Source: a virus
Virus record (IMG/VR): IMGVR_UViG_3300033153_005202
Location: 1 to 28,744 of that record
Length of the DNA: 28,744 nucleotides
Direction: 5' to 3' (one strand)
In this document: piece after piece, positions 24,860 to 27,839 of the stretch
Layout: each line of letters starts with the position of its first letter
How positions within the stretch are numbered: position 1 is the stretch's first letter
The notes under the pieces: model-generated
What the model was told of the DNA's origin: nothing
Databases searched by the model: none
Seen by the model: the letters and a program-made list of their open reading frames with translations, nothing else
Made by a program: the position numbers and the translations under genes

Positions 24860-27839
24860 TCAACTCCTTTACTTGATTAAAAACATCGTCACTTATCTGA
24901 AGTAAGCGTGGAAAGATAAACTCTGTTCCGTTTTCTGACACGCCAACCAGCCGTACCTTTATGGTACCATTTTTCTCACTGCTTATACAGCTCAGAGCGT
25001 CAGCAATTTTGCCAATCTTTACTCTGAGGTCTAAAGTTACATTTTCTTTTCTTTCTACACGGCTGGCAATTTTTGACAATTCTTGTACTTTTCCTATTCT
25101 AACCTTACAGATATTTTCTTTTTCACCTTCTGTAACTTCAAGCCACCCATAAATTAATAAGGGAACCTTCTTGTCGAATAATTTTTTATATCGGGAGTAC
25201 GTTTTAGTAAAAGCTACACTGTCTATTTGTCCAGTCTTATCTTCAAGGGTAAGAAATGCCATCTTTTGCTGTTTTTTCTTTGTTGTAATTTCACTTGTGG
25301 TTGATATAACTACTGCTAAAACAATTTCTCCACTGTCGGCAAGGTTCTTTATATCTTCGATAGGCATTAACTTACCGTCGCCATATAGATTATAGTCATC
25401 TAATGGATGTTCTGAAATATAGAAACCTAATAGTTCATGTTCGTATTCAAGTAACTCATCACGAGGCAACTCTTCGAATTGTCTAATCTTAGGAAATATA
25501 GGTTGTTCTGGATAGGTTGGATTTTTTAAAGGCTTAAGAAGGATGCCTTTATCATTTGTCTTTCCTTCTTTTATATCGTTGTTACGTTGTTTACATTTTA
25601 ACTTTCTATTCATATATGTATTGAGTTTACTTTCGAATGATTTGAGCTGCTTTCTATATTCCCAGTATTTCTCGGTAACAACAAGAAGACTTTTTCTATT
25701 CGGCGCGATAGAATCAAATGCCCCGGCTTTAATTAGAGTATCTACTTTGAGTCTATTAACCTTAGAGAGATTAACTCTTTCACAAAAATCTATAAAGTCT
25801 TTGAATTTATTCTTTTCTCTTTCTTCTATGATGAGAGAGACAGGACCTTCTCCTAAATTCTTAATAGGAGCGATACCAAAGACAATATTATCTTTCTTAT
25901 CAATAGTAAATAGTTCACTACTTTTATTTATATCCGGCGGAGAAATATTAATTCCTAACCTTTTACACTCTGCTATATATTTAATCATCTGATCTTTATT
26001 ATTTCTATCACAGATCATTGCAGAGCACATCCATTCAACTGGATAATATGTTTTAAGATAAGCAGTTATATATGCAGTAACTCCATATGCTGCACTATGA
26101 GAATTAGAACAGCATAATCCAGATGCAAGTACATAGTTATGGGATGGATGATCTACTTCAAGATCATAACCTTGTCGCATTCCGAGATAAGAGATTCGTA
26201 TAATTTTCCGATGCATACTATAGGTTGGGCTACCCCATTTGTCAGTAAATCGAAGAGGCTCTCTAAGCTTATCTTTGTAAGTTCCCCAGAGGTCTTGAAG
26301 TTCTCCATTGAGATCCGAATTAGTTTCCATTCTCGGCGCAGCACTTCCTGTTCCAACATCCTGTCCCGACTCTGAGTTCTTTTCAGAATTTCTTCTCCAT
26401 GAACCGGTAGAAAATGCCATGGTCCATCCACCTCTAGGATGGTCTGCAGGTCTCTGTTGATAAAATCCACCTGTTTGCGTTCTTTCTGACATCGGATCTG
26501 GACGTTCCGTTTGAAACCAATGCTGAATAGATGAGGTTCTAACCACGCTTCCATTTTGGATCTTTTTGGACTTGATTGAGCTTTTCTTGTTATGGCCTGG
26601 AATTTCTCTGGATTTTCTAATCGCCAGTGGGCCAAGACTGCTGCCCGAGACTCGCATATTTCTGGTCTTTTTGAGGTTTTCTTGGCTGTCTCGGACGCAA
26701 TCTTTCTGGCCTGAGGAGTTTTGTTGCTGTTCGTTCTGGTTTGTTTGCGGATCTGTTTTCTCTTGGCTTGACATTCTTTGCAATTGACTCTGTGTTTCTT
26801 TGCTTCTTCTCGCGTGATCCTGGCTTTCATACCACACAGGAACACCTTCTCCGTAACACTGTAGATCCCGCTCTTTACTAGGCTTCTGCATTGTTTGCAG
26901 GTTCTTTGATGAGTCAGAAGTTTCTTGCGTGTTGATAGCTGATCCCCACACCTCGCAGTCCAGGTCAAGGATTTTCCAGAGTGGTTGTTGTCCCCATTCT
27001 GTAAGCCATTTGTGGTCAAGTGTACATTTTTCAATTGTCCCATCGTCGAATTCTACCTCCCAGAGAGGTACTATTCCATGATCGTGGAGTGCAACGACTT
27101 TAGACAATACAACTTTACCATCTGGTTGTATTGTGAATACGACATCACCTTTGGAACAATCCTCTATTTTCTTTACTCCATTAAGTGTATCAATTTTTGT
27201 ATCTTTGTCAACTGTTTTGTTGAATCCGTATGATGCAAAATTTACTAATTGACTCCAGATTGTATCGGCAGTTTCAGAAGAAAATCCATTGTTCATCCAA
27301 CCAGATTTGAATTTCTTCTCTTCCAATTTCATTTTATCAGGTAATTTTTTACCAATTATCTTTCTAAGATTGTCGCTTTCTGGGGATGTATATCCACATA
27401 AATCTGTAGCAATTTTCATACATTGTTCTTGATAGACTAAAAAATTTCCAGTTTCGTTAAGAATTGGTTCTAATTCTGGTATCAAATACTCTGGTTCTTT
27501 TTCTCCTGCCCGCCAAGCAAGAAAATCTTGAAGGCCGCTACTGCCGAGTGGACCAGGTCGATAAGCTGCAACTAAAAATGATAAGTCAGCAAGCGAAGTA
27601 GGCCTAACTTGAACTGTTAGATCACGAAAACCAGAACTCTGTTCAAATTGAAATATTCCTTGAAGATTACCAAGTCTAAACTGCTCAAAAACTTTATCGT
27701 CTTTCCAGTTAAGATTATAGATATCTATATCTTTACCATGTCTTTTTTTAACAAGGTCTAGACAGATAGATACTTTAGTAAGTGTAGACAATCCAAGGAA
27801 ATCAAATTTTATATAACCTAATTTTTCAAGGTTATTCAT
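24852..27839 (-). CDS. dnaE: DNA polymerase III alpha (DnaE), C-terminal fragment, interrupted by an intein
   Basis: This 995-codon frame starts with NLEKLGYIKFDFLGLSTLTK. D13 matches the third catalytic Asp of family-C polymerases (E. coli D555). It continues with FQFEQSSGFRDL, AYRPGPLGSSG, VYQEQCMKIA and ASYGFNK. The intein covers residues 209-579. The extein resumes with SHSAAYGVTAY, then PPDIN, GIAPIKNLGEGP, a helix-hairpin-helix (about 690-712), HELLGFYISEHPL and an OB fold (about 838-905). DnaE homology extends upstream of the ATG to about 27896 (DKNIPLFKG, DDSIAAQWEM) with no usable start codon or ribosome binding site. So the start at 27839 is only the first Met, not a convincing initiation site. 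The first two catalytic Asps are in the separate fragment at 27896, in another frame. Confidence 0.85.
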   Translation of the reverse strand: MNNLEKLGYIKFDFLGLSTLTKVSICLDLVKKRHGKDIDIYNLNWKDDKVFEQFRLGNLQGIFQFEQSSGFRDLTVQVRPTSLADLSFLVAAYRPGPLGSSGLQDFLAWRAGEKEPEYLIPELEPILNETGNFLVYQEQCMKIATDLCGYTSPESDNLRKIIGKKLPDKMKLEEKKFKSGWMNNGFSSETADTIWSQLVNFASYGFNKTVDKDTKIDTLNGVKKIEDCSKGDVVFTIQPDGKVVLSKVVALHDHGIVPLWEVEFDDGTIEKCTLDHKWLTEWGQQPLWKILDLDCEVWGSAINTQETSDSSKNLQTMQKPSKERDLQCYGEGVPVWYESQDHARRSKETQSQLQRMSSQEKTDPQTNQNEQQQNSSGQKDCVRDSQENLKKTRNMRVSGSSLGPLAIRKSREIPGHNKKSSIKSKKIQNGSVVRTSSIQHWFQTERPDPMSERTQTGGFYQQRPADHPRGGWTMAFSTGSWRRNSEKNSESGQDVGTGSAAPRMETNSDLNGELQDLWGTYKDKLREPLRFTDKWGSPTYSMHRKIIRISYLGMRQGYDLEVDHPSHNYVLASGLCCSNSHSAAYGVTAYITAYLKTYYPVEWMCSAMICDRNNKDQMIKYIAECKRLGINISPPDINKSSELFTIDKKDNIVFGIAPIKNLGEGPVSLIIEEREKNKFKDFIDFCERVNLSKVNRLKVDTLIKAGAFDSIAPNRKSLLVVTEKYWEYRKQLKSFESKLNTYMNRKLKCKQRNNDIKEGKTNDKGILLKPLKNPTYPEQPIFPKIRQFEELPRDELLEYEHELLGFYISEHPLDDYNLYGDGKLMPIEDIKNLADSGEIVLAVVISTTSEITTKKKQQKMAFLTLEDKTGQIDSVAFTKTYSRYKKLFDKKVPLLIYGWLEVTEGEKENICKVRIGKVQELSKIASRVERKENVTLDLRVKIGKIADALSCISSEKNGTIKVRLVGVSENGTEFIFPRLLQISDDVFNQVKELNG
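26103..27215 (-). mobile_element. DnaE intein (371 residues) with an out-of-frame endonuclease gene inside
   Basis: The insertion lies between FNK and SHSAAYG, a highly conserved DnaE active-site segment. The N-terminal splicing block is TVDKDTKIDTLNG, with Thr where Cys1 is usual. Block B is GTIEKCTLDHKWLTEWG, with the T-x-x-H of inteins. Blocks F/G are QGYDLEVDHPSHNYVLASGL, then CCSN followed by Ser+1. So terminal Asn579 and Ser+1 are present, while the penultimate residue is Ser instead of His. Between the splicing blocks (about residues 305-525) the frame is Gln/Ser/Asn/Lys-rich with no recognisable domain, because that DNA encodes the nested endonuclease in another frame. The DNA there is visibly richer in G+C than dnaE, consistent with a separate origin. 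Confidence 0.88.
26153..27043 (-). CDS. Nested EDxHD (VSR-like) homing endonuclease with two zinc fingers, out of frame in the intein
   Basis: This 296-residue protein lies entirely inside the intein DNA, in the +1 frame relative to it. Two zinc fingers of the same form lie near the start: C32-x12-H45-x3-C49-x2-C52 and C70-x13-H84-x3-C88-x2-C91. A basic linker follows (KQIRKQTRTNSNKTPQARK). The nuclease core has KMEAWLEPHLF (E165), KQVDFINRD (D193), ILEVDGPWHF (D206, H210) and QSRDRMLEQEVLRREWKLIRI (D227): the E...D...xH...D set of VSR-like homing endonucleases. A GGGAGGT lies 11 bases before the ATG at 27043, so independent initiation is plausible. The last 50 or so residues overlap DNA needed for the intein's C-terminal splicing blocks. 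The likely function is to cut intein-free dnaE and drive homing. Confidence 0.8.
   Translation of the reverse strand: MGQLKNVHLTTNGLQNGDNNHSGKSLTWTARCGDQLSTRKKLLTHQRTCKQCRSLVKSGIYSVTEKVFLCGMKARITREEAKKHRVNCKECQAKRKQIRKQTRTNSNKTPQARKIASETAKKTSKRPEICESRAAVLAHWRLENPEKFQAITRKAQSSPKRSKMEAWLEPHLFSIGFKRNVQIRCQKERKQVDFINRDLQTILEVDGPWHFLPVHGEEILKRTQSRDRMLEQEVLRREWKLIRISMENFKTSGELTKISLESLFDLLTNGVAQPIVCIGKLYESLISECDKVMILK

Follow-up and report, generated by a model that had tools for sequence, protein, structure and literature searches.

The dnaE gene (DNA polymerase III alpha) of the IMG/VR virus record IMGVR_UViG_3300033153_005202, analysed here in a window of 28,744 nucleotides (positions 1 to 28,744 of that record), raises the question of how an intein and a homing endonuclease can be read from the same DNA in two frames. 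An earlier note, made from the sequence alone, had placed an intein at positions 26103-27215 (residues 209-579 of the dnaE fragment) and a 296-residue protein in the +1 frame, and both assignments were exact. The element is very probably a cis-splicing DnaE intein in which the +1 frame doubles as the gene for a homing endonuclease. Three lines of evidence supported the proposal in that note that splicing and homing share DNA: the avoidance of stop codons, a change of substitution phase along the element, and structure predictions made for each frame. The arrangement recurred in at least 23 other copies.

In the dnaE frame, one continuous open reading frame (ORF) of 995 residues ran through the 371-codon intein (26103..27215, minus strand; YGFNK/TVDKDTKI...YDLEVDHPSHNYVLASGLCCSN/SHSAAY, giving YGFNK/SHSAAY junctions), instead of the two separate host-gene ORFs of a split intein. 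The N-terminal splicing half (residues 1-95; 26931..27215, minus), which starts with Thr and contains block B CTLDH, matched DnaE inteins in phmmer (1.4e-5), and the C-terminal half (residues 332-371; 26103..26222, minus), with block F YDLEVDHPSHNY and the terminal Asn, aligned with all relatives. Structures were predicted with AlphaFold from family alignments, each frame separately. Residues 1-95 and 332-371 of the intein frame were confident (predicted local distance difference test, pLDDT, of approximately 86-97 for residues 1-90 and 77-96 for the C-terminal half), and residues 96-305 were mostly below 50 (30-41 for residues 101-300). The two ends formed a HINT fold, with the Npu DnaE intein (4kl5/2keq; Foldseek 1.5e-6, root mean square deviation 1.6 A over 93 columns) and the Ssp DnaE intein as best PDB matches. 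The middle (residues 96-331; 26223..26930, minus), whose +1 frame is the nuclease, was mostly predicted to be disordered; a known domain in this middle, named in the earlier note as a result that would contradict it, was searched for and none was found.

The splicing blocks had been described as intact. This was correct for blocks B, F and G, and several marks of class 1 inteins were present: TxxH in block B (CTLDH), Asp and His in block F (YDLEV...HN), the terminal Asn and the +1 Ser. It was not correct for residue 1, which was Thr in place of the Cys1 or Ser1 nucleophile, nor for the penultimate residue, which was Ser where His is expected. The Npu and Ssp DnaE inteins, the closest solved HINT folds (2keq, 4kl5, 1zd7), likewise have a penultimate Ser before the terminal Asn, but differ in having Cys1 and no endonuclease; they are natural split inteins at a different dnaE site.

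The out-of-frame endonuclease ORF (296 residues; 26153..27043, minus; +1 with respect to dnaE and intein; 56% identical to L089) contained two zinc fingers and a nuclease core of the type anticipated, E...D...xH...D. The first finger was C32-H45-C49-C52 (26888..26950, minus), with C32, H45 and C49 invariant in an alignment of the eight closest relatives (A4), and the second, from the same sequence and alignment, was C70-H84-C88-C91 (26771..26836, minus). The core (residues 165-243; 26315..26551, minus; E, D-F, E-x-D-G-x-x-H-F, R-D, R-I) had eight residues invariant in 30 relatives, among them the catalytic set of EDxHD endonucleases (D193, E204, D206, G207, H210 and D227), and its S/E, D193, E204-x-D206-G-x-x-H210, D227 and R243 aligned with phage homing endonucleases. 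The AlphaFold model had a mean pLDDT of 85.8 (mostly above 90 for residues 31-280), and its best PDB folds were those of Vsr (1vsr, 1cw0; Foldseek E 0.005, probability 1.00, template modeling score 0.50-0.59 on target length), at a sequence identity of only 13-15%. The DUF559/PF04480 profile matched 14 of the 30 relatives, but not the window protein itself. Assignment to a Vsr-like (restriction-endonuclease-like) fold is thus a prediction with good but not overwhelming support. Vsr itself is a mismatch-repair nickase; the window protein would presumably cut an empty target site-specifically. Taken together, the structure predictions proposed in the earlier note gave ordered ends in the intein frame (HINT) and an ordered middle in the endonuclease frame (Vsr).

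The open +1 frame could have arisen by chance in a degenerate intein linker and encode nothing. The window endonuclease alone gave only weak library matches (phrog_9529, 1.8e-6; phrog_9084, “homing endonuclease”, 0.0016), had no close relative in named phages, and had no matches in single-sequence searches of viral contigs, phages or PDB sequences. A chance frame is nevertheless barely credible, given the confident Vsr-like fold prediction, the conservation of the protein, including unvarying catalytic and zinc-binding residues, across many lineages, and the purifying selection in the endonuclease phase and stop avoidance in the intein frame described below. A further candidate, also rejected, was an ORF within a group I intron, which would be spliced out at the RNA level and make the intein-like frame incidental. 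Phage EDxHD endonucleases are often intron-borne, but a search of 24500-28744 against Rfam gave no match up to E=1, and so no ribozyme core, and every copy examined had an unbroken, HINT-folded intein frame, which makes an intron extremely improbable.

Both frames were under selection. An endonuclease codon that ends in T creates an intein-frame stop when AA, AG or GA comes next. Of the 1211 T-capable codons in this position in 23 nested genes, none ended in T, versus 1438 of 3496 before other codons in the same genes; in eight freestanding homologues the stop-creating T was present at 306 of 656 such codons. Synonymous shuffles predicted 9-21 intein-frame stops per nested gene (each P<0.0005, 0 of 2000 shuffles at zero), with a mean of 14.5 for the window endonuclease ORF, in which none was observed (0 of 2000 shuffles). 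The third frame of the nested genes had 10-40 stops.

Codon-position analysis, another approach suggested in the note, showed the phase flipping from intein to endonuclease and back to intein. Pooled pairwise divergence at dnaE codon positions 1/2/3 (pairs not independent) was 0.28/0.20/0.53 in the N-extein, 0.30/0.21/0.52 in the intein N half, 0.48/0.26/0.20 in the intein middle (the endonuclease phase), 0.18/0.09/0.31 in the intein C half and 0.37/0.29/0.58 in the C-extein: the peak was at dnaE position 3 in the exteins and intein ends, and at position 1, which is endonuclease position 3, in the middle. Between dnaE-borne relatives, amino acid identity in the middle was 46-81% in the endonuclease frame versus 24-58% in the intein frame, so that the intein-frame middle is mainly passive. 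Constraint on this middle beyond the avoidance of stops was looked for and was not supported: its identity in distant pairs equalled or slightly exceeded the level given by synonymous shuffling, and was higher in close pairs, as shared ancestry predicts.

The family was reached only through a small alignment of the window nuclease core with distant phage endonucleases, which was searched against IMG/VR; the best-matching loci were located inside dnaE inteins, out of frame. It was extended by a second round (viral contigs and bacterial genomes) and by further genome searches. Twenty-four distinct intact dual-frame copies, including the window, were found, with an identical relative frame in all: the window, L089, L090 (L091 being near identical), L092, L095, L096, L097, L100, L173, L174, L176, L180, L181, L183, L184, L186 (same matches as L197), L200 (Thiotrichaceae), L201 (Thiosymbion), L202 (Venteria), L203 (Beggiatoa), L204 (Thiomargarita), L205 (uncultured proteobacterium), L207 (Methyloprofundus) and L209, the last being outside the 23 stop-tested genes. 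Both frames were also open in L223, with His-His in block F as in L204, and its inclusion gives 25 copies. The carriers were phage dnaE, gammaproteobacterial dnaE (Thiotrichaceae, Beggiatoa, Thiomargarita, methanotrophs) and a second phage gene; because the copies in L100, L184 and L186 lie in this gene and not in dnaE, the element has moved from one gene to another. Across four orders it was distributed sporadically (2 of 63, 7 of 43, 6 of 301 and 1 of 210 genomes; of the seven, four were near full length and three fragments), and the plasmids searched had no match to the element. This breadth of hosts, with two host genes, had escaped the earlier note, as had the Thr at position 1 and a lesion upstream in dnaE.

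Other intein-like segments were seen near members of the family. The phage protein at L100 1108-5448 had a second intein-like segment (CLDAETEALTKRGW...VTGN) directly upstream of the dual-frame intein, and the dnaE genes of L090, L093 and L096 had additional intein-like inserts at other conserved sites (e.g. GRG/CLSGDT in L090). An alignment search for the intein/extein junction returned inteins of other types at the same site.

The start of the endonuclease was compatible with internal initiation. A Shine-Dalgarno (SD)-like GGGAGG (27056..27061, minus; duplex energy -11.1 kcal/mol) was located 12 nt before the endonuclease ATG, within conserved intein codons. Across the family, SD-like energy was strongest where the endonuclease begins, with a mean of -7.2 kcal/mol as against -3.7 kcal/mol for later blocks (Mann-Whitney P ~1e-9, for related sequences). 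Production by ribosomal frameshifting, as an intein-endonuclease fusion, would accord with the +1 relation being constant in all copies, but is unlikely: the endonuclease frame had a stop codon a few to approximately 30 codons before the start, followed by a start codon with an SD-like sequence, and no slip site was identified.

Comparison of the window with the Thiotrichaceae copy L200 gave identities of 72% and 65% for the intein halves, 51% for the endonuclease, and 32% and 35% for flanking DnaE; mobility was supported by the intein identity being far above that of the flanks. Nine copies had a broken or shortened endonuclease with the intein frame open, by deletions keeping the intein frame (L093, L094, L214, L215, L216) or by stops inside the endonuclease (L170, L192, L206, L210); the search would miss copies with dnaE broken. 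A broken +1 frame beside a conserved intein frame had been named in the note as refuting its claim. This state does occur, but beside 24 copies with both frames open, so that it fits a stage of endonuclease loss better than a chance ORF. Endonuclease decay with retention of the intein frame is expected from the homing cycle, provided that splicing is required of the intein and the endonuclease becomes dispensable. L214-L216 were mini-forms of 193-215 residues with the endonuclease deleted and both splicing halves retained; these came from an order that also had full-length copies.

Because the sole PF07733 gene found in each of six carrier genomes (completeness not stated) was interrupted by the element, dnaE most likely depends on splicing. 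Residue 1 was Thr in 12, Ser in nine and Cys in one of 22 tabulated family rows (L090 and L091 being near identical). Reviews give Cys1 and Ser1 as the step-1 nucleophiles, although a figure legend in one of them also lists Thr (PMC4031507). Five genomes carrying Thr1 inteins had no second PF07733 gene, which suggests that such inteins can splice.

Several points weigh against the window element being a splicing intein with an internally initiated endonuclease. Residue 1 of the window intein is Thr. An unspliced insert may be retained in phages. In the “LWE” clade, the GGAG of the SD-like sequence is partly fixed by conserved intein codons; lineages without “LWE” or with a shifted start (L090, L097, L173, L174) still had an SD. 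Finally, the window dnaE (28486 to 24852, minus) was in two frames: a 5' part with the palm (27896..28486, minus; Pfam PF07733, 3.5e-62) and a 3' part in the other frame with the finger domain, the intein and the C-terminal domains (24852..27839, minus; Pfam PF17657, 1.3e-41; PF14579, 9.9e-27; NCBIfam polc, 1.7e-132), separated by a deletion and frame break (27840-27905, minus). With respect to L093, approximately 37 DnaE residues (the HASGIII region) were gone at 27902/27905, where the frame changed. The lesion, which is either an assembly error, a recent event or a split gene, left the intein and endonuclease untouched; unless it is an assembly error, this copy may give no working polymerase. 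Searched as DNA, the complete window gave no close match among phages.

Thr1 and the broken dnaE would also suit an element that does not splice at all: a selfish endonuclease gene would keep the host frame open and the insert would stay in the protein. This was proposed for the ShiLan insertion, a stop-free insert with an HNH homing endonuclease out of frame, in which neither an intein nor an intron was found by its authors (PMC11855218). For the present family such an explanation is improbable: both ends are HINT-folded with conserved blocks B, F and G, unlike ShiLan; the intein ends evolve in the intein phase; the mini-forms lacking the endonuclease retain both ends; and the only PF07733 gene found in the six genomes carries the insert.

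If the element is an intein with an overlapping endonuclease, ribosomes translating dnaE would read straight across it, the two intein halves would fold as a HINT domain and excise themselves, and the endonuclease DNA would be read as no more than a disordered linker. Other ribosomes would initiate at the internal SD and start codon, giving a separate zinc-finger EDxHD/Vsr-type endonuclease. This enzyme would cut intein-free dnaE at YGFNK^SHSAAY, and repair would copy the element in. Splicing, endonuclease translation, the cleavage site and homing are here deduced from sequence and models.

With respect to origin, the earlier note had suggested that an endonuclease gene invaded a mini-intein linker out of frame. 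In the phylogeny, freestanding relatives were separated from all nested ones (100/100, midpoint rooting only), which fits a single, ancient origin of the nested form without fixing the direction of change; the suggested invasion would agree with such an origin. An in-frame endonuclease may instead have been displaced by two compensating indels.

The overlap may also be a natural gene entanglement protecting the endonuclease, with many members splicing with Thr1, although this is proposed tentatively. An endonuclease frameshift would also break dnaE, so that loss could occur only by point mutation or in-frame deletion, and this stage of the homing cycle might be slowed. Such an entanglement agrees with the decayed copies, in which only nonsense mutations or deletions keeping the intein frame were seen, within a search that would overlook copies with a broken dnaE. 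The engineered entanglement STALEMATE (PMC12455656) likewise has two genes in overlapping frames, designed there and natural here.

The closest precedent is the ShiLan insertion, which shares a mobile insert that is stop-free in the host frame, with a homing endonuclease and zinc fingers out of frame. It differs in its HNH nuclease and in having no detectable intein or intron, whereas the present EDxHD/Vsr-type nuclease lies within a complete HINT intein, the ends overlap conserved splicing blocks, and the host gene is dnaE, in phages and bacteria. Two HINT halves, with endonuclease DNA inserted at the customary point, are shared with conventional large inteins, which have their LAGLIDADG or HNH endonuclease in frame; in contrast to these, the endonuclease is in another frame (24 of 24 intact copies) and would be a separate protein, not released with the excised intein. 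The dnaE site is that of the inteins in L003, L004 and L005, whose middles have a short in-frame CxxC...H HNH-like motif and which can serve to compare in-frame with out-of-frame arrangements. Dassa et al. 2009 reportedly described free-standing EDxHD endonuclease genes near split inteins; the nuclease motif and the link to an intein are shared with these, but the present endonuclease overlaps a continuous intein rather than lying between two intein halves. A literature search gave no published intein with an overlapping endonuclease, leaving aside bioRxiv 2025.01.02.630785 (“non-canonical architecture”) and Dassa et al. 2009.

Of the four inteins reported in the genome paper on Thiomargarita nelsonii (PMC4853749), only that in dnaE was described as lacking an endonuclease domain; the Thiomargarita dnaE copy L204 carried the endonuclease out of frame. 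The overlap may explain why some inteins, such as this one, are annotated as having no endonuclease, and surveys restricted to in-frame domains would miss these elements. The architecture, with splicing and homing on shared DNA, has been stable enough to spread across phages, several gammaproteobacterial families and a second host gene. It also allows two ideas to be tested, namely that an overlapping endonuclease is lost more slowly and that natural inteins with Thr1 can splice.

Other genes of the window included a second, freestanding EDxHD-type homing endonuclease (12357-12887, plus; phrog_559, 3.6e-19; phrog_9084, 8.7e-12); a homing endonuclease-like gene (4005-4634, plus; phrog_314, 4.5e-14) adjoining a Cas4-like exonuclease and a primase-helicase gene; and a tRNA-like gene (17293-17369, minus), listed by ARAGORN as tRNA-??? 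with the four-base anticodon ttca.

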